Part shown: in pieces, positions 41,720 through 49,760 of the stretch
Position numbering within the stretch: position 1 is the first letter of the stretch
How the letters are laid out: every line of letters begins with the position of its first letter
Assembly (NCBI GenBank): GCA_016219015.1
Contig: JACRCL010000017.1
Coordinates: 1 to 64,000, forward strand
Source: Deltaproteobacteria bacterium
GTDB lineage: Bacteria > Desulfobacterota > GWC2-55-46
DNA: 64,000 bases
Reading direction: 5' to 3'
Position numbers and translations under genes: made by a program
Notes under the pieces: model-generated
Databases searched by the model: none
What the model was told of the DNA's origin: nothing
The model's input: only the letters and a program-made list of their open reading frames with translations

Positions 41720-41991
41720 CAGGCTGCTGAAAAACTCAAAATCAAATACAGGCTGCTCAAAAAGCTCCAGATGCGAGGCCCCGATTGAAATAGGGAAGCA
41801 AGGAATGAGGCGTACTTTGTCTGTCATTCTGAGCGAGTGAGCCGAAGCCCTGAGCGAAGCGAAGGGGAAGAATCTCGAATTGGGGAGCAACAGGTTCGGG
41901 ATTCTTCGTCGCCTTCGGCTCCTCAGAATGACAACCTTGTACGCTGTTGCGCTTTGATGAAACGAAGCAGATGGACTTTTTCAGCAGCCTG
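41720..41991. repeat. Family-2 palindromic element, locus d, carrying an internal family-3 repeat
   Basis: CAGGCTGCTGAAAAACTC and a tandem CAGGCTGCTCAAAAAGCTCC start the locus; ACTTTTTCAGCAGCCTG ends it, 9 bp before the hsp70-like stop codon. The centre is interrupted at about 41822 by a family-3 element, after which the family-2 right half resumes. Confidence 0.85.
41823..41932. repeat. Family-3 palindromic repeat, copy 3 (nested)
   Basis: GTCATTCTGAGCGAGTGAGC at the left, CTCCTCAGAATGAC at the right, with GAAGAATCTCG and CGGGATTCTTCG inside. It lies within a family-2 element, showing that family 3 was the later insertion here. Confidence 0.88.
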
Positions 41992-41999
41992 TTAAGGCC

Positions 42000-44660
42000 C
42001 TACTGGAGCCTCAGCCCTGTCTCGATGACGGTATTCTGCGGCCCGTATACGACGCTCAAGTGCCCGCCCCCGTCAACCGAAAGGGTTATATCCGTGTCCC
42101 CGTCGAGCGGCTCCCTGTAAGGCAGCGTTACCGTCTTCAGGCCCGTAAGGTTCAGGTCGTTGAACTGCCTCAACTCCTGCTTCAGGGACTCGACCCCGCC
42201 CTCTATCACCCACTTGCGCGTAATAAGGCTTTCGGGGACCTCGAAGAGCTCCACGTATATCTCGCTCTGGAAGCCGAGCTTCTTCGCGGGCCTGACCCTG
42301 AAGGTCTTCTCCACAGGCAGGGCCTCGCCCTTCTCAAGCACTATGGAGAACGAGTGGGTGGCGTCCTTGTCGGTCGCGGAATACCTTATCGCGTAAGCCA
42401 TCCCCAAGTGCCTGTCGGTTATCTCCCTTGTGCCGTAGAGAGCGGCCCCCTGCCCCACGGCCGTAAGCGGGCTGTGGTCGTAGATGAGGTTCTCCCTCCT
42501 CAGGTTCGGGAATATGTGGCCTATCTTCTCCTTGAAGGAGGGTATCTGCGAGGAGCCCCCGGTAAGGAGCACCGCCTCTATCTTGTCCTTCCTGAGCCCG
42601 ACCTTCTCGGCCCTCTTCAGGACATAGGAAAGGGTCCTGTCGACGTTTTTGTAGAAGTCGTGCCTGTCGAGTATCTCCTCGAACTCCGCCCTCGTCACCT
42701 TCGCCACCTCCCTGCCCTCCCAGACGAAGGCGGCCTCGTTTTTTCTGGAAAGCTCTATCTTTATCTCCTCCGCCCTGCTCGTGAGCCTGTATGGCACCTT
42801 TTCCGGAGACATGCCGGCCTTTTTCGCGCACTCTACGGCCAGCCAGAGGTCTATGTCCTTTCCGCCGAGGACCAGCGCCCTCTCGGGCTTGGCCACTATG
42901 TGCACCTCGTTCACGTTGAGGCGCACTATCATGGTATTCAGAGTGCTGCCGCCGAAGTCTATTATGAGGACGACCTTGTCCCTCTCCTCCACCACCTGGT
43001 AGCCTACCGCGGCCGCCAGGGGCTCCTCTATGAACTCGACCTTCGCCCCCTTCGCGTTCCTCTCCACTATCTCACGGAGCGTGTTCTTGTAGTCTGTGTA
43101 GCCTACCGGCACGGTAAGGTAGATGACGTCCGAGGGGTTCCTGGGCAATATCGAGAACCAGCCCGAGCTCGCGGTGGCCTTCTTCAGGTGCTGGTACAGG
43201 ATGCGGAAAAACCTGTCCATGTGCTCCTTCGCCTTCGGGTTGCCGTCCAGGAGCATCTGCTTCATGTTCGTTATCGGGAAGTCCTCGTTCACCTCGGCGC
43301 CTATGGAATTGGTCTCCGCGCTCAGCACCGTCGGTATTATGAGGGCTCCGTCGTACCTTTTCGCGGCGGGCAGCTGGATGAACTCCGGCTGGGAGCCGCC
43401 CTTCTTCCTCATTATGACGGTGTTCGTGGCGCCCAGGTCTATGGAGACGCAGTCGATGCTGGCGGGCTCTTTCCTGTGCACGACGTGAAAGCCCCCGGAG
43501 GCGGGGTTGTGCTCTTTCACGAACACCGGCCTTTCGATCTCCCTCCCGTGGTAGGTGGTGGCCAGGCCCTCGAGGCGGTCGACGACCTTCTTTACGGCGT
43601 CCCTCAGCGCCTTCGGCTGCACCCATACGTGGGTGTACGGCCTCAGGGTCTCTATGAAGCGAGTGTCGTTCAGCCTCGGGGCGAGCTTTTCAAGCTCGTT
43701 CGAGATTATCTGCGCGTATTTCTCCCTCGAGAACCTATTCTTCTTCGACTCCTTTATGCCGAGCTCCTCGGCCGAAAGGATGTAGTCCACGACGTCGAAG
43801 ACCTCGATATCCCCCATCCACTTCCTTACGGTGAAAAACGAGAGCGACTGCTCTATGACGTCCTGCAGGAGGGGGAAGAAGTCTAACTCCTTGGGGATCT
43901 CCTGCACCAGCTCAATAAGGGCGTGCTGCCTCGCGAACGGGTCGTTTATCTCAATCGTCGCCTTGTACGTCCCGGTTATGACCTCCCGGTAGAGGTCCGC
44001 GAACTCCCCGCCCTTCGGCAGGTCCTTCGCTATGTACATGAGGGCGTACTTCCTGTAGAAGGGCTCTTCGATGAGCGGCACGGCCTTGATGGCGCAGCCT
44101 ATGGCCTCCCTGTAAGCCGCGGCAAATACCCCCTCCTTCGGCATCTCCCTGGCTATGCCGAGGAGCGTGTAGCGCTTGAAGAACGACACGTCGCTCGTCT
44201 TGGGCAGCTCGCTCGCTATCTGTCCGAGCGGGACCTCCCTGCGCCTGGGCTCGTCCGGGAGGTTCATGGCGAGCCTCCAGGCCCGAAGACGAGTGGGGAT
44301 GAACTTATCGGCCTTCGGTATATCATTGGCGAGCCGCAGCAGCTCCGTAGTCCTCTGGTAGGCCTCGGTAAGCCCGTCGGCCGCGTCTACCGCGTCCTCT
44401 ATGGCCTTCGAGTAGAGAGGGAGGAAAGGCTCGGTATGGGGGATCTCCTTTACGAAGTCGAGGGTGGCGTGCCTGTTGTCCTCGGGGTCAGTTACCCTGT
44501 TAAGGAGCTCGTAGCCGAGCTTGAACAGCTCGAGGAATTCGGGGGACTTTGGGATGAGCCGGGCTGTGTCTATGAGAAGGCCCCTCGCCGAATGGCCGAC
44601 GCCGGCCTCTTTTATCGAATTAAGCGTCTTTTTAAGGCTGTCGAAGTCGATCGTCTTCAA
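42000..44660 (-). CDS. HEAT-like repeat protein fused to an Hsp70-type ATPase
   Basis: An 886-residue protein with an unusual layout. Residues about 30-300 hold helical repeats with a recurring (I/L/M)PK...F..LY..AI pattern; the PK/PH marks fall at 36, 73, 114, 152, 173, 214 and 255, mostly about 40 apart. From residue 400 there is an Hsp70/actin-fold ATPase: phosphate-1 SIDLGATNTVIM (406-417), connect motif FIEEPLAAAVGY (543-554), phosphate-2 IIDFGGSTLN (566-575) and adenosine motif LLTGGSSQIPSF (698-709). About 130 beta-rich residues follow, shorter than a DnaK substrate domain and with no EEVD-like tail. It overlaps the radical-SAM gene by 4 bp. Probably a chaperone or ATP-driven assembly factor with its own docking repeats; not a DnaK substitute. 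Confidence 0.88.
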   Translation of the reverse strand: MKTIDFDSLKKTLNSIKEAGVGHSARGLLIDTARLIPKSPEFLELFKLGYELLNRVTDPEDNRHATLDFVKEIPHTEPFLPLYSKAIEDAVDAADGLTEAYQRTTELLRLANDIPKADKFIPTRLRAWRLAMNLPDEPRRREVPLGQIASELPKTSDVSFFKRYTLLGIAREMPKEGVFAAAYREAIGCAIKAVPLIEEPFYRKYALMYIAKDLPKGGEFADLYREVITGTYKATIEINDPFARQHALIELVQEIPKELDFFPLLQDVIEQSLSFFTVRKWMGDIEVFDVVDYILSAEELGIKESKKNRFSREKYAQIISNELEKLAPRLNDTRFIETLRPYTHVWVQPKALRDAVKKVVDRLEGLATTYHGREIERPVFVKEHNPASGGFHVVHRKEPASIDCVSIDLGATNTVIMRKKGGSQPEFIQLPAAKRYDGALIIPTVLSAETNSIGAEVNEDFPITNMKQMLLDGNPKAKEHMDRFFRILYQHLKKATASSGWFSILPRNPSDVIYLTVPVGYTDYKNTLREIVERNAKGAKVEFIEEPLAAAVGYQVVEERDKVVLIIDFGGSTLNTMIVRLNVNEVHIVAKPERALVLGGKDIDLWLAVECAKKAGMSPEKVPYRLTSRAEEIKIELSRKNEAAFVWEGREVAKVTRAEFEEILDRHDFYKNVDRTLSYVLKRAEKVGLRKDKIEAVLLTGGSSQIPSFKEKIGHIFPNLRRENLIYDHSPLTAVGQGAALYGTREITDRHLGMAYAIRYSATDKDATHSFSIVLEKGEALPVEKTFRVRPAKKLGFQSEIYVELFEVPESLITRKWVIEGGVESLKQELRQFNDLNLTGLKTVTLPYREPLDGDTDITLSVDGGGHLSVVYGPQNTVIETGLRLQ

Positions 44661-45223
44661 TGGCCTGCCCCGAAGATGACCCTGCTGAAACCGGTCTCGG
44701 TCACGGCCCCGTCCCTGCCGATTATCACCTCGACCTTGCCGGGCATGAGGAAGTCGCTTTCGTTATAGCGGTCAGTGAGGAATATGAGTCGCTGGTTCTC
44801 CGAGCCCCTGGCAAGGAGCGTCTTTTCTTTCCTCTCCTCGATGTAAGGCCCGTCGATTAGAACGTCGATATATTCGAGGATTGAGGCGGCAAGCCTGTCA
44901 GACTTAAGCTCCTTGAGCGTAAAGCCGGTATACACGACCGTTGAAAGCCCGAGCCCCTTTGCCTGCTTCAGGAGCAGAAGGAGGCCGTCTTTCTGCATGA
45001 AAGGCTCCCCGCCGCTCACCGTTATGCCTTCGACCCCCCCGGCCCTTTTTTCAAGGACCTCCCAGGGCGTATGGAGCTTTCTTGCCTCGAATGTGTGCGT
45101 GTCCGGGTTAAAGCACCCTTCGCAGTCCCGCGCGCAGCCCTGAAAGAAGACGACCTCCCGGAGGCCGGGGCCGTTCACCCTCGAATAAGGCAGTATTGCG
45201 TGGATATTGATGAGTTCACCCAT
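44657..45223 (-). CDS. Radical-SAM activase-like protein (NrdG/PflA-type)
   Basis: A compact 188-residue radical SAM protein with the 4Fe-4S motif CARDCEGC (C-x3-C-x2-C, residues 30-37), the SAM-binding GGEPF and a short TIM-barrel half. The N-terminus (INIHAILPYSRVNGPGLREVVFFQGC) resembles the anaerobic ribonucleotide reductase activase NrdG and pyruvate formate-lyase activases. No glycyl-radical enzyme is encoded near it. Its stop overlaps the start of the HEAT-Hsp70 gene (ATGA), so the two are coupled and probably work together, for example to modify or activate a protein presented by the chaperone. The target is unknown. Confidence 0.85.
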   Translation of the reverse strand: MGELINIHAILPYSRVNGPGLREVVFFQGCARDCEGCFNPDTHTFEARKLHTPWEVLEKRAGGVEGITVSGGEPFMQKDGLLLLLKQAKGLGLSTVVYTGFTLKELKSDRLAASILEYIDVLIDGPYIEERKEKTLLARGSENQRLIFLTDRYNESDFLMPGKVEVIIGRDGAVTETGFSRVIFGAGH

Positions 45224-45295
45224 GATGGCGACCCGTTTAGTCGATTATTTGTTTTTATGGAATACCCCGGAAGGGGATCGGGAATTATTCTCTTT

Positions 45296-45441
45296 AAGGC
45301 TACCTCTAAAAATTGTTCTTTTTCCTGACCTCTGCGTCAGGACGAAAATAAAAATACTCACATATTCACATATATGCTGCGCTTTTTATTTCCGCCCTTC
45401 CTTGACTTCAGAAAAAATTCCTAATTTTTAGAGGCAGCCTT
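45296..45441. repeat. Family-1 palindromic element, copy E (inverted orientation)
   Basis: About 146 bp, ends AAGGCTACCTCTAAAAATT and AATTTTTAGAGGCAGCCTT. It lies between the DUF2997-like gene and the radical-SAM gene, splitting the cluster without breaking a gene. Confidence 0.9.
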
Positions 45442-45466
45442 GGCCGGAAAACCCTTGAAGCCCCGG

Positions 45467-45646
45467 TCACTCGGCCTCTATCTTTATCTTTATTTCCCTG
45501 TCGAGCTCGTCTTTCTCCACGAAGCTCTCCTGCTTGCCGAGGAGCTTCGTCAGGTGCTCGGCGACTTCCTTGCAGTCCGTGTAGATGCTCGAGTCTATCT
45601 CCACTTTTCCGTCAGGGGTTATTTTTATCCTTATCTGTCTGTCCAT
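45467..45646 (-). CDS. DUF2997-like small protein (59 aa)
   Basis: Short gene with ATG at 45646 and TGA at 45467-45469. The product begins MDRQIRIKITPDGKVEIDSS, with a lone Cys in IYTDCKEVAEHLTKLLGKQE and an acidic/basic end EIKIKIEAE. The I-x-P-D-G-x-V-E start followed by a Cys-containing helix is the DUF2997 pattern; in other bacteria that family neighbours DUF1257 (Ycf35) and Ycf46 ATPases, as here. Function unknown. The ribosome-binding site is AAAAGGTG about 6 nt before the ATG. The gene is easily missed because of its size. Confidence 0.75.
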   Translation of the reverse strand: MDRQIRIKITPDGKVEIDSSIYTDCKEVAEHLTKLLGKQESFVEKDELDREIKIKIEAE

Positions 45647-45661
45647 TCATTCACCTTTTGG

Positions 45662-45775
45662 CAGGCTGCTGAAAAAGTCCATCTGCTTCGTTGTCTTCGT
45701 CTTGTCACAACGTAAGGAGTACGTCTCATTCCTCGCTCCTCGACGCCTCGCATCTGGAGCTTTTTGAGCAGCCTG
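45662..45775. repeat. Family-2 palindromic element, locus e (canonical)
   Basis: CAGGCTGCTGAAAAAGTCCA at the left and CTGGAGCTTTTTGAGCAGCC at the right, about 114 bp, between the DUF1257 and DUF2997-like genes. Confidence 0.9.
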
Positions 45776-45818
45776 AATAATTCAGAGTTTCTGCAGGTGC
45801 AGAAAAAATACGCCAGGC

Positions 45819-46157
45819 CTATCCTTTAAGGAGTATCTGTATCTCCCCGGCCGTCTCGTTCTCCTTGGCTATCTCGAAGTCCAGCGGCAGGTTGTCCTTT
45901 ATCGATTCGTATGCGTATATCTGCTTCAGCCTGTTCGAGAACGTGTTGACGACTCTGTTGTCGCCGCCCATCTGGTAGTTGCCGGATTTTTCCTTGGAGA
46001 GGTTTATTATGTCGCCGTCCCTGTCCACCTCGATAGTCTCTTTCTTCTCGTTCTTTATGAAGTTCTTTATCTCGCCCCTCCTTTTAAGCTCCTCGAGGGC
46101 GCAGATTATGTACTTCTTGTTATTGAGCTCTGTCTTGATGACGGTATAGAAAGACAT
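45819..46157 (-). CDS. DUF1257 (Ycf35) family protein
   Basis: A 112-residue protein. The N-terminus SFYTVIKTELNNKKYIICAL parallels Ycf35 SHFSxIKT, and the C-terminal NRLKQIYAYESI followed by FEIAKENETAGEIQILL parallels the Ycf35 ending. Ycf35 is encoded in algal plastids and cyanobacteria, with scattered homologues elsewhere; its biochemical role is not known. It starts 13 bp after the Ycf46-M41 gene on the same strand, so they are certainly cotranscribed. Presence with a Ycf46 ATPase reproduces a plastid/cyanobacterial gene pair in a non-photosynthetic context. Confidence 0.85.
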   Translation of the reverse strand: MSFYTVIKTELNNKKYIICALEELKRRGEIKNFIKNEKKETIEVDRDGDIINLSKEKSGNYQMGGDNRVVNTFSNRLKQIYAYESIKDNLPLDFEIAKENETAGEIQILLKG

Positions 46158-46170
46158 GCGCGGTCCCTCC

Positions 46171-48306
46171 TCAGTTAAGGGGGGTCTCCCTGAAGAACCT
46201 GTTAAGGGCGTCCCCGTTCATCAGCACTTCCTTAAGGAGCCTCTCGGCGAGCGCGAGGAGGGCTTCCTTGTTCCTCCCTATCACCTCTGCCGTGGCCTCC
46301 TTGGCGGAGTCGAGTATCTTCTGGATGTCGTCAAGGACATCCCCCCCGGATGTGAGGGCGTAGTCCTGCAGGACGATGAGGCTTTTGTTCCTCATTATCT
46401 CGCCGAACCCGTACTCCACGACCATCTTCCTCGCTATCCCCGTTGCCTGTATGAGGTCGTGGGACGCGCCTACGGTCTTGGAGTCGTTCCCGATCATCTC
46501 GTCCTCGGCGACCATGCCGCCGAGTATGACCCCTATCTCCTTTTCGAGGTCCCTCTTCGTGAAGGTCGTCCTTATCGCCTCGTCTATCGGTATGAAGGCG
46601 CTGAAGTTCTTGTAGTTGTCGACGCTTACGAAGGCCGGGGTCTTGTTGAAGTGGAGCTTCATCATGACGGCGTGGCCCGCCTCGTGTATGGCGATATTCC
46701 TCTTCTCCGTGTCGGTAAGGGACTCCGCCCTCTGGAGGAAGAGCGAGCGGGAAGCCGGGCGCGCCCTCTGGTGGCTCCAGGTCCGTAGCTCCTCTATCTC
46801 CTCCTTCTTCAATACCGACAGCGGCGTAATGTGCCTTATCGAGGAAAGGAGCGTTTCCTGCGTGACGTCAAGGGCAAGGAGGCCCTCTATCATGTCCTCG
46901 ACCTCTTTCGTGCTCTCGCCGCCGTGGACGGTATTGAAGGTCGTTACAACGGCGTCCTTGACGGCCTGCTCTATCTCGGCCCCGGTGAACCCCTGGCTGT
47001 TCTGCGCCAGCTCCCTCATGTTCAACCTGCTCAGGTTCTGCACCCTTCTTTCGAGGTGTATCCTGAATATCTCCTCCCTCTCCTCCTGGCTGGGGAGATC
47101 CACGAAGAAGACCTCGTCGTACCTGCCTTTCCTCCATAGCTCCGGAGGGAGGTTCTTGGGCTCGTTGGCGGTGGAGATGACGAAGACCGGGTTCTCCTTT
47201 TCCTGCAGCCACGTGATGAACGTGCCGAAGACCCTCATCTGCGTGCCCGAGTCCCCCTGGTAGCCCGATATGCCGCCGAAGGCCTTGTCGATCTCGTCTA
47301 TCCAGAGTATGCAGGGGCTTACGGCCTCGGAGAGCTGTATGCACCTCCTGATGTTCTTTTCGGACTCTCCGACCGTGGAGCCGAAGAGCCTGCCGACGTC
47401 GAGCCGAAGCAGGGGCAGGTTCCATATCCCGGCAAGCGCCTTGCAGCAGAGGCTTTTCCCGGAGCCCGGCACGCCAATGAGCAAAAGCCCCTTCGGGACG
47501 TCGAGCCCGAGGGTCTCAATTTTGTCGCGGCTCAGGCGGAATACGTGCTCCCTCTCGACGAACCATTTCTTTATCTCGCTCAGGCCCCCGATGTTCTCTA
47601 TCGTCTCCCTGTGGGGGTAGTAGTCGAGTATCTTCTGCTTTTTTATTACCTGCTGCTTTTCGTCCTGGATGTAGGATATGCAGTCCTCGTTAAGGAAGCC
47701 GTTATTGAGGCTTATCGCCTTCCTTATGACCCTTTTTATGTTGTCCATGGAAAGCCCCTGCAGGGACTTGTACAGGATCGAACGCGTGGAGGCGTGCCAC
47801 TTCTCGGGGATGAGGTGGCCGTAGGTCTGTGAGACCATCTCGGCTATCTCGTCGTAGTCAGGCAAGGAGAGCTCAAGGACCACGATATCTTCTTCAAGCT
47901 CCGGAGGTATTTCGCTAAGCGTGGGGGAGAGTATGCAGATGGTGTTTATGGTGTGGCGCTCTTCTATTATCGCCGGGAGGTCCCTGAACCTGCGCAGGAA
48001 CTCATGGGAATTGAAGTACCCGGCTATGTCCTTCAGGAGGAAGATGTTGTTGGTGTTCTCGCCCTTGGATATCTTCTCATCTATCGTGGCGAGTATCTTC
48101 TCCTTGCCCATCGGCTCCCGTTTCTTCTTCTCCCCGCCGTACAGGCCGCGCGAGACCGACCAGGACCAGAAGTTGAACTTCATGGACTCGCTTAAACTCT
48201 CTACGATCCTCTCGACCCTCCGCTCCTCGAAAGACACCAGCCAGAGAATGGGGTAACGGGCCTCGACATGGATCTTTATTTCATTTTCGAAGTCACGGGT
48301 ATTCAT
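46171..48306 (-). CDS. Ycf46-type AAA+ ATPase fused to an M41 (FtsH-like) metalloprotease domain
   Basis: A 711-residue soluble protein. Residues about 1-215 match the Ycf46 N-terminal region (IKIHVEARYPILWLVSFEER). The AAA+ module follows: Walker A GVPGSGKS (278-285), Walker B ILWIDEID (333-340), sensor ISTANEP (377-383), arginine-finger region ELWRKGRYDEVFFVDLP (389-405), and a lid with GFTGAEIEQAVKDA. The C-terminal 190 residues are an M41 peptidase: zinc motif HEAGH (541-545), LGGMVAEDEMIG, and GASHDLIQATGIARKMV with the third ligand Asp617. Ycf46 proteins normally end after the AAA domain; FtsH normally carries transmembrane helices, absent here. It would unfold and degrade soluble substrates. 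First gene of the cluster, with a promoter at 48386-48413. Confidence 0.9.
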   Translation of the reverse strand: MNTRDFENEIKIHVEARYPILWLVSFEERRVERIVESLSESMKFNFWSWSVSRGLYGGEKKKREPMGKEKILATIDEKISKGENTNNIFLLKDIAGYFNSHEFLRRFRDLPAIIEERHTINTICILSPTLSEIPPELEEDIVVLELSLPDYDEIAEMVSQTYGHLIPEKWHASTRSILYKSLQGLSMDNIKRVIRKAISLNNGFLNEDCISYIQDEKQQVIKKQKILDYYPHRETIENIGGLSEIKKWFVEREHVFRLSRDKIETLGLDVPKGLLLIGVPGSGKSLCCKALAGIWNLPLLRLDVGRLFGSTVGESEKNIRRCIQLSEAVSPCILWIDEIDKAFGGISGYQGDSGTQMRVFGTFITWLQEKENPVFVISTANEPKNLPPELWRKGRYDEVFFVDLPSQEEREEIFRIHLERRVQNLSRLNMRELAQNSQGFTGAEIEQAVKDAVVTTFNTVHGGESTKEVEDMIEGLLALDVTQETLLSSIRHITPLSVLKKEEIEELRTWSHQRARPASRSLFLQRAESLTDTEKRNIAIHEAGHAVMMKLHFNKTPAFVSVDNYKNFSAFIPIDEAIRTTFTKRDLEKEIGVILGGMVAEDEMIGNDSKTVGASHDLIQATGIARKMVVEYGFGEIMRNKSLIVLQDYALTSGGDVLDDIQKILDSAKEATAEVIGRNKEALLALAERLLKEVLMNGDALNRFFRETPLN

Positions 48307-48318
48307 TGAACACCTTTT

Positions 48319-48365
48319 AGGCTACCTCTAAAAATTGTTCTTTTTCCTGATTTTTAGAGGCATCC
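48319..48365. repeat. Family-1 palindromic element, copy F (internally deleted)
   Basis: Only 47 bp: GGCTACCTCTAAAAATTGTT joined through TTTTTCCTGA to TTTTTAGAGGCATCC. The centre has been lost, leaving both ends. It lies in the 5' leader of the Ycf46-M41 gene, 12 bp before the ATG, so its hairpin would be present in the mRNA beside the ribosome-binding site. Confidence 0.85.
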
Positions 48366-48558: not shown

Positions 48559-48635
48559 CCTTACTGGAAGCTTTTTTTAAGGCCCCAAAGCCTTTCAGCC
48601 CCTTTTACACGGGTTTCATGGCAATTCCGGCAGGG

Positions 48636-48803
48636 CTATACAGTGGGCCTCCCTCGCCCGACCACGAGGGATACTATGAAGAGGATCACGAATATGACGA
48701 AAAGGAGCTTGGCTATCCAGGCAGCGGTCCCGGCGATGCCCGCAAAGCCCAGGACGGCCGCGATTATCGCTATTATCAAAAATGTTACTGCCCAGGAAAG
48801 CAT
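48636..48803 (-). CDS. DUF1328 (YtjA-family) small membrane protein (55 aa)
   Basis: A very short gene with ATG at 48803 and TAG at 48636-48638. The product begins [20 protein letters not shown] and continues [19 protein letters not shown], ending with GRGRPTV: two hydrophobic helices separated by GxAGIAG, the DUF1328 pattern. Members are envelope proteins of unknown role, often stress-induced. A GAGGTGAC ribosome-binding site, a strong sigma-70 promoter with a leader of about 70 nt, and a perfect terminator frame the gene, so it is a compact, probably well expressed transcription unit. Confidence 0.9.
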
Positions 48804-48881
48804 ACTGTCACCTCATTTTTGAGATCCCGGGGACCCGGAGTTGTTTTTTTATCGTAAGTACCTTGTTTTTCCTCTATTTTT

Positions 48882-48997: not shown

Positions 48998-49636
48998 ATG
49001 GAGTACATAAAGGAATTCATCCAGATATTCATGCACCTGGACGCGCACCTGAACGTCATCATCAACGACTTCGGCGTCTGGACATACCTCATACTCTTTC
49101 TCATCATCTTCTGCGAAACGGGCCTTGTCGTAACGCCGCTCCTTCCGGGGGACTCGCTCCTTTTCGCCGCCGGGAACTTCGCGGCCATGGGCTCGCTCAG
49201 GGCCGAATACCTCTTCATATCGCTCGCGATAGCCGCCGTCCTGGGTGATACGGTCAACTACGGGGTCGGGCGCTTCATGGGGCCTAAGGTCTTCCACAGG
49301 AAAGACAGCCGCATATTCAAGAAGGAGTACCTCGACAAGACCCACGGCTTCTACGAGAGATACGGCGGCAAGACCATAATCCTTGCGCGGTTCGTGCCGA
49401 TAGTGCGCACCTTCGCGCCGTTCGTGGCCGGCATCGGGGCCATGAGCTACGGGAGGTTCGTCGCCTATAATATTGTGGGAGGGGTGTCGTGGATAGGGCT
49501 TTTCGTGTTCGGGGGGTACTTCTTCGGCAACCTGGCTTTAGTCAAGAACAACTTCACGGCCGTGATATTGGCCATCATCGTAATCTCCGTCCTCCCCGGC
49601 CTCATAGAGGTGGCAAGGCACAGGAGAAGGGCGTAA
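48998..49636 (+). CDS. DedA-family membrane protein
   Basis: A 212-residue protein with about five hydrophobic segments and DedA motifs: ETGLVVTPLLPGDSLLFAAG, NYGVGRFMGPK, and RYGGKTIILARFVPIVRTFAPFVAG, which holds the conserved Arg residues of the proton-coupled site. DedA proteins flip or transport undecaprenyl phosphate or phospholipids and support envelope proton homeostasis. Monocistronic; a family-2 repeat begins directly after the stop codon. Confidence 0.92.
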   Translation: MEYIKEFIQIFMHLDAHLNVIINDFGVWTYLILFLIIFCETGLVVTPLLPGDSLLFAAGNFAAMGSLRAEYLFISLAIAAVLGDTVNYGVGRFMGPKVFHRKDSRIFKKEYLDKTHGFYERYGGKTIILARFVPIVRTFAPFVAGIGAMSYGRFVAYNIVGGVSWIGLFVFGGYFFGNLALVKNNFTAVILAIIVISVLPGLIEVARHRRRA

Positions 49637-49637
49637 G

Positions 49638-49760
49638 CAGGCTGCTGAAAAAGTCCATCTGCTTTGTTGTCATCAAAGCTCGTCACTGCGACGTACGAAA
49701 AGAGTACGTCTCATTCCTCGCTTCTCGACGCCTCGCATCTGGAGCTTTTTGAGCAGCCTG
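49638..49760. repeat. Family-2 palindromic element, locus f
   Basis: CAGGCTGCTGAAAAAGTCCA to GGAGCTTTTTGAGCAGCCTG, about 123 bp, beginning 2 bp after the dedA stop codon. Confidence 0.9.

Follow-up and report, generated by a model that had tools for sequence, protein, structure and literature searches.

A conserved five-gene cluster joining a putative soluble Ycf46-type AAA-M41 protease to Ycf35-like, DUF2997-like, radical-SAM and Hsp70-like proteins

In a stretch of 64,000 nucleotides of a Deltaproteobacteria contig (hereafter the window), we describe a cluster of five genes whose products are a Ycf46-type AAA+ ATPase fused to an M41 protease domain (AAA-M41), a Ycf35-like protein, a DUF2997-like protein, a small radical-SAM enzyme and an Hsp70-like ATPase. 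That these five genes make up one system is strongly supported by the conservation of their order. The presence of an AAA ring, a protease and an Hsp70 together points to ATP-driven protein handling, and we give about an even chance to the proposal that the cluster encodes one dedicated machine for ATP-driven protein remodelling and proteolysis.

All five open reading frames are intact (window 42000-48306; Table 1), and the layout described in an earlier note on this DNA, i.e. five genes on the minus strand with 13 bp between the end of the AAA-M41 gene and the Ycf35-like gene and a 4-bp overlap of the radical-SAM and Hsp70-like genes, was borne out by the open reading frames of the window. 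Two of the intergenic gaps are occupied by interspersed repeats, so that a single transcript of the five genes is only putative. One repeat, CAGGCTGCTGAAAAAGTCCATCTGCTTCGTT, lies at window positions 41725-41995, 45662-45778 and 49638-49668, and two of these copies flank or sit inside the cluster; genome-wide it is present in 103 copies at no more than 3 mismatches, with none for the reversed control, and in appearance it is a MITE or REP-like element. A second repeat, CTTTWAGGCTACCTCTAAAAATTGTTCTTTTTCCTGA, is found in the gap after the DUF2997-like gene (45292-45328) and just upstream of the AAA-M41 gene (48314-48350), and could be regulatory or mobile. Upstream of the cluster are encoded a small hydrophobic protein, YtjA-like by eye (48618-48854), and a VTT/DedA membrane protein (48998-49633).

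Table 1. Genes of the five-gene cluster in the window
Gene	Position	Strand	Length	Remark
AAA-M41: Ycf46-type AAA+ ATPase fused to M41 zinc protease domain	46171-48306	minus	711 aa	
Ycf35-like (DUF1257-like), probable adaptor	45819-46157	minus	112 aa	
DUF2997-like	45467-45646	minus	59 aa	
Small radical-SAM, activase (NrdG/PflA) type	44657-45223	minus	188 aa	
Hsp70-like ATPase	42000-44660	minus	886 aa	TTG start

The conservation of the unit was followed in 51 named loci that came out of scanning 84,980 species genomes; the genomes that hold these loci are all MAGs or uncultured, and most carry the depositor label Deltaproteobacteria or Nitrospirota. The order AAA-M41, Ycf35-like, DUF2997-like, radical-SAM and Hsp70-like, all on one strand, was complete in 45 of them, the remaining six being interrupted by contig ends, and the median intergenic gaps were only ~10-25 bp. 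An order kept in so many loci with such short gaps is not a matter of chance. Thus, the reading that the five genes are unrelated chance neighbours, for which the repeats in two of the gaps might be cited, is already refuted by this conservation and by the recurrence of the genes in plasmids and phages, and we leave it practically no probability. Among 20 larger loci, all of the same taxonomic family and order, this arrangement was seen as well, with contig-end truncations as the exceptions. The genes flanking the five vary between families and, since the flanks are not conserved, it is the five genes themselves that constitute the unit. The earlier note had read the cluster as one conserved unit and had looked to conserved order or co-occurrence in distant lineages for its support; both were found, the core recurring in sister lineages, in a cyanobacterial plasmid, in Rhodococcus and Bacillus, and in phages.

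Each of these settings presents a different version of the arrangement. In other families of the phylum, genes for true DUF1257 (PF06868 ~1e-23) and DUF2997 (5e-14) adjoin a gene for a 470-515 aa Ycf46-type AAA protein without M41, and the sister-lineage loci often add separate Hsp70-like and HEAT-repeat genes (HEAT-Hsp70-Ycf46-DUF1257-DUF2997). The cyanobacterial plasmid locus reads GrpE-Hsp70-DUF1257-DUF2997-AAA, and the AAA partner in such loci has the same two-AAA layout as the window protein, but neither the M41 fusion nor a radical-SAM gene, both of which the window cluster has. On a Rhodococcus plasmid, AAA is found with a DUF1257-like gene, DUF2997 and radical-SAM, a Bacillus plasmid holds radical-SAM, AAA, DUF1257 and DUF2997, and in Treponema a radical-SAM gene adjoins AAA, while large phages carry the core with an NrdG-like radical-SAM. 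A four-gene core is shared with plasmids and large viruses. Because many Ycf46-type loci are without a radical-SAM or an Hsp70, these two are to be regarded as accessories and not as core.

For the viruses, this association could be put into numbers. Within the fetched stretch, DUF1257, DUF2997 and radical-SAM were all present in 17 of 80 viral contigs that hold a Ycf46-type AAA, and a radical-SAM gene lay near the AAA gene in 18 of the 36 loci with a DUF versus none of the 44 without (Fisher 2.6e-8; still 1e-4 with the AAA proteins clustered at 70% identity, but weaker, 0.02, at 60%). Since the 44 AAA proteins without a DUF may belong to a subfamily of their own, the statistic is evidence of association and not proof of joint function. 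On the large phage contigs L150, L152, L158, L166, L205 and L210, the core lies beside ThiF/E1-like and RecA-like proteins and probably a ParB-like protein too; a JAB-like peptidase and a ubiquitin-like protein were noticed there by eye, with Pfam matches absent.

The core is common on phages and on plasmids, in some cases next to a ThiF E1, and this invites a reading in terms of conflict, whether defence or counter-defence, with kinship to the FtsH-ternary systems that Kaur et al. 2020 describe. Those systems likewise combine a protein of two AAA halves, the N-terminal one inactive, with a radical-SAM and a small partner gene (PMC7159879). The FtsH-ternary conflict system is the closest described arrangement to the cluster. 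However, it requires MoxR and vWA, neither of which was found among the nearest neighbours of the window cluster or in the conserved unit, and its radical-SAM is of the Memo-Ammecr1 type whereas that of the cluster is of the activase type (PMC7159879). Moreover, a variable effector is missing, PADLOC gives just generic AAA (IetA), viperin and PDC-M61B similarity, and the Ycf35-like gene, held by 27 of the 31 close relatives with high-quality genomes, is near-universal among them, as it would be for a housekeeping function. A role in conflict is, on this evidence, distinctly unlikely.

The AAA-M41 protein itself matches the Pfam families AAA (1e-29) and Peptidase_M41 (8e-21). Its Walker motifs, HEAGH (541-545) and D617 are invariant, and HEAGH and D617 align with H414, H418 and D492 of FtsH, i.e. 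with the full zinc site. The N-terminal half is AAA-like (E 6e-5 in the family alignment; in a comparison with FtsH by itself the similarity was not seen), and the protein has the layout of Ycf46, in which a degenerate N-terminal AAA half is joined to an active AAA; phrog_8638 matches residues 3-545 at 2e-127. While the AAA+ and M41 domains and the zinc site are those of FtsH, the degenerate half is not, and the window protein has no segment of transmembrane strength (maximum hydropathy 1.27, against 2.32 in FtsH), the N-terminal membrane anchor of FtsH being absent by the same hydropathy analysis. The score against TIGR01241 (FtsH) is 175.7 bits, where the cut-off is 600. We infer that the AAA-M41 protein is a soluble unfoldase-protease.

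Of the family labels proposed in the earlier note, AAA, Peptidase_M41, radical-SAM and HSP70 stood in Pfam, whereas Ycf35 and DUF2997 fell below the Pfam cut-offs, and yet these two proteins emerge from alignment as diverged homologues. The Ycf35-like protein of the window has no match to Pfam DUF1257 (PF06868) at the gathering score, and among its relatives the best value was 0.034, with matches in 3 of 15. It aligns, nonetheless, over its full length (residues 1-110) to true DUF1257 (E 3e-7), both match phrog_20456, and it has the MS start and the Q-x-YA motif of DUF1257, features by which we judge it to be a diverged DUF1257 homologue. A tblastn search of phage records with a diverged DUF1257 gave no match. 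The AF2 model (pLDDT 85) has the succession strand-helix-4 strands-helix-2 strands; Foldseek gave no match below 1e-3 in the PDB for this model, and the weak KA1/BamC/phosphoglucomutase-type matches (Z no higher than 8.5) are uninformative. Where a small conserved protein accompanies an AAA ring, it is as a rule an adaptor or cargo, and the Ycf35-like protein is a probable adaptor.

The DUF2997-like 59-mer scores 19.6 bits against PF11211, for which the gathering cut-off is 24.1, and has the G...C...LG pattern in common with DUF2997; judged by that pattern, it too is a diverged homologue. The plastid names Ycf46 and Ycf35, when given to the proteins of the cluster, stand for remote homology. 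The small-protein families are the same as those of the cyanobacterial and plastid Ycf46, Ycf35 (DUF1257) and DUF2997 genes. In DUF2997, one Cys (C25) and one Gly (G13) are invariant in 112 of 112 sequences, and C25 lies at a predicted helix start in a low-confidence model (pLDDT 64). The cysteine is equally conserved in loci with and without a radical-SAM, which implies that it is important to the core function and that it is not a radical-SAM-specific site. No residue of DUF2997 or DUF1257 stands out as tracking the presence of the radical-SAM. In two other loci, a protein of 61-63 aa encoded between Hsp70 and Ycf46 (L093:3578-3760 and L094:10831-11019) ends in ...NLCG and has a DUF2997-like DG-turn hairpin; it may be a second small partner.

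The Hsp70-like protein matches Pfam HSP70 (3e-19) and contains an actin-like ATPase with the phosphate and adenosine motifs. The alignment to the DnaK profile extends weakly into SBD-beta, with no helical lid seen; a far better match than DnaK, over both the ATPase and the C-terminus, is given by the Hsp70-like proteins of the sister loci (E 1.5e-30), and the protein falls far below all DnaK/HscA cut-offs. The likeness to DnaK and other Hsp70 proteins lies in the ATPase domain and, more weakly, in an SBD-beta-like C-terminus, while the difference lies in ~390 additional N-terminal residues. This N-terminal region (~1-390) is presumed to be alpha-helical, but the HEAT repeats that the earlier note had ascribed to the protein were not recovered, as no HEAT family of Pfam was matched in the first ~390 residues. 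Neither is there demonstrable homology between the N-terminus and the HEAT genes of the sister loci, and on that ground the idea that the sister HEAT gene had been joined to Hsp70 in a Rosetta-stone fusion was rejected.

The radical-SAM protein (Pfam Fer4_12/Radical_SAM, 2.5e-32) resembles NrdG and PflA, its closest families, in its small size and in the CX3CX2C and GPGxR (VNGPG) motifs that it keeps. Its chemistry is presumably activase-like, and the activase type implies a protein substrate. It scores 116.5 bits against TIGR02491 (NrdG), just below the cut-off of 126.1, and one could take it for an ordinary NrdG that activates an anaerobic ribonucleotide reductase. However, NrdD is absent in 19 of the 19 cluster-bearing genomes of the class, a one-contig genome included, all of which hold class I/II reductases (PF02867), and it is absent as well in 17 of 18 core-bearing records from plasmids or phages, some of which may be fragments. 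Nor does the genome of the window contain any Gly_radical domain, and its only other Fer4_12-like match resembles MoaA (family judged from sequence). The enzyme differs from NrdG also in its C-terminal extension (VxIxxDGxVxxTGF-like), which is present in the cluster enzymes and many mobile relatives and absent from E. coli and T4-like NrdG; in the tree, a radical-SAM clade separate from NrdG is not firmly resolved. The identification as NrdG was accordingly rejected, leaving an anaerobic reductase as the substrate very improbable, and the activase claim of the earlier note loses its NrdD or glycyl-radical partner. With NrdD and Gly_radical absent, the substrate must be something else. The C-terminal extension VEVIIGRDGAVTETGF (window 44657-44760) resembles the N-terminal hairpin of DUF2997, IRIKITPDGKVEID, over a very short stretch.

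A weak similarity to viperins and QueE raises the alternative that the radical-SAM makes a small molecule, such as a nucleotide or cofactor, that is sensed by the AAA/DUF complex in a viperin-like manner. This is quite unlikely, considering that NrdG and PflA, to which the enzyme comes closest and with which it has GPGxR in common, are activases that act on proteins.

In the remodelling and proteolysis machine proposed here, the Ycf46-type AAA ring would, by analogy with its family, thread or unfold a putative client and, in this lineage, feed it into the M41 protease that is fused to the ring itself. The DUF1257 and DUF2997 proteins would be adaptors, choosing the client or presenting it, and the Hsp70-like protein would hold, deliver or refold it. 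The radical-SAM could use radical chemistry to alter either the client or one of the system's own proteins; its target would not be an anaerobic ribonucleotide reductase, and the leading candidate is the DUF2997 protein with its invariant Cys. The suggestions of the earlier note, that the set serves protein maturation or quality control and that the radical-SAM modifies the client, are plausible. A bolder version, which we consider rather unlikely, is that of a radical-SAM-controlled AAA+ protease, where a radical-derived change on DUF2997 (or DUF1257) turns on, or gives an address to, the unfolding and proteolytic work of the Ycf46 ring, chromosomes, plasmids and large phages all use it, and the plastid Ycf35 and Ycf46 are reduced descendants.

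Alternatively, the cluster might serve one radical, cobalamin or Fe-S enzyme whose gene lies elsewhere, as its dedicated reactivase or maturase, with the Hsp70-like protein and the AAA swapping a damaged cofactor or subunit, the protease clearing dead copies and the radical-SAM restoring the radical or cofactor. Actin/Hsp70-like reactivases exist for B12 diol dehydratases, and class I/II reductases are present in all the cluster genomes examined. In cyanobacteria, DUF2997 and ycf35 adjoin the ferredoxin gene fed7 in 'cluster g' (PMC4284462), and the ycf46 operon of Synechocystis reacts to oxidative stress and to a shortage of iron, sulfur or nitrogen (PMC7496141). Loss of ycf46 in Synechocystis also lowers external carbonic anhydrase activity (PMC7496141). 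Against such a maturase, no candidate client adjoins the cluster, and the reductases, the sole client family compared, are universal. We hold it to be rather improbable, and retain the dedicated remodelling and proteolysis machine as our preferred reading.

We found no published account of the five-gene system in a search from which subscription journals were largely absent, so that an earlier description is possible. Many algal plastids and cyanobacteria retain Ycf35 and Ycf46, which, to our knowledge, have no agreed biochemical role. By placing a protease, an Hsp70-like chaperone and a radical enzyme at their side, the cluster supplies testable partners for these 'unknown ycf' proteins; it also reveals what is predicted to be a soluble M41 protease on a Ycf46 body. 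A widespread radical-SAM of the activase type without its usual substrate must act on something new and, if the version with a radical-SAM-controlled AAA+ protease were true, it would be a new kind of post-translational control.
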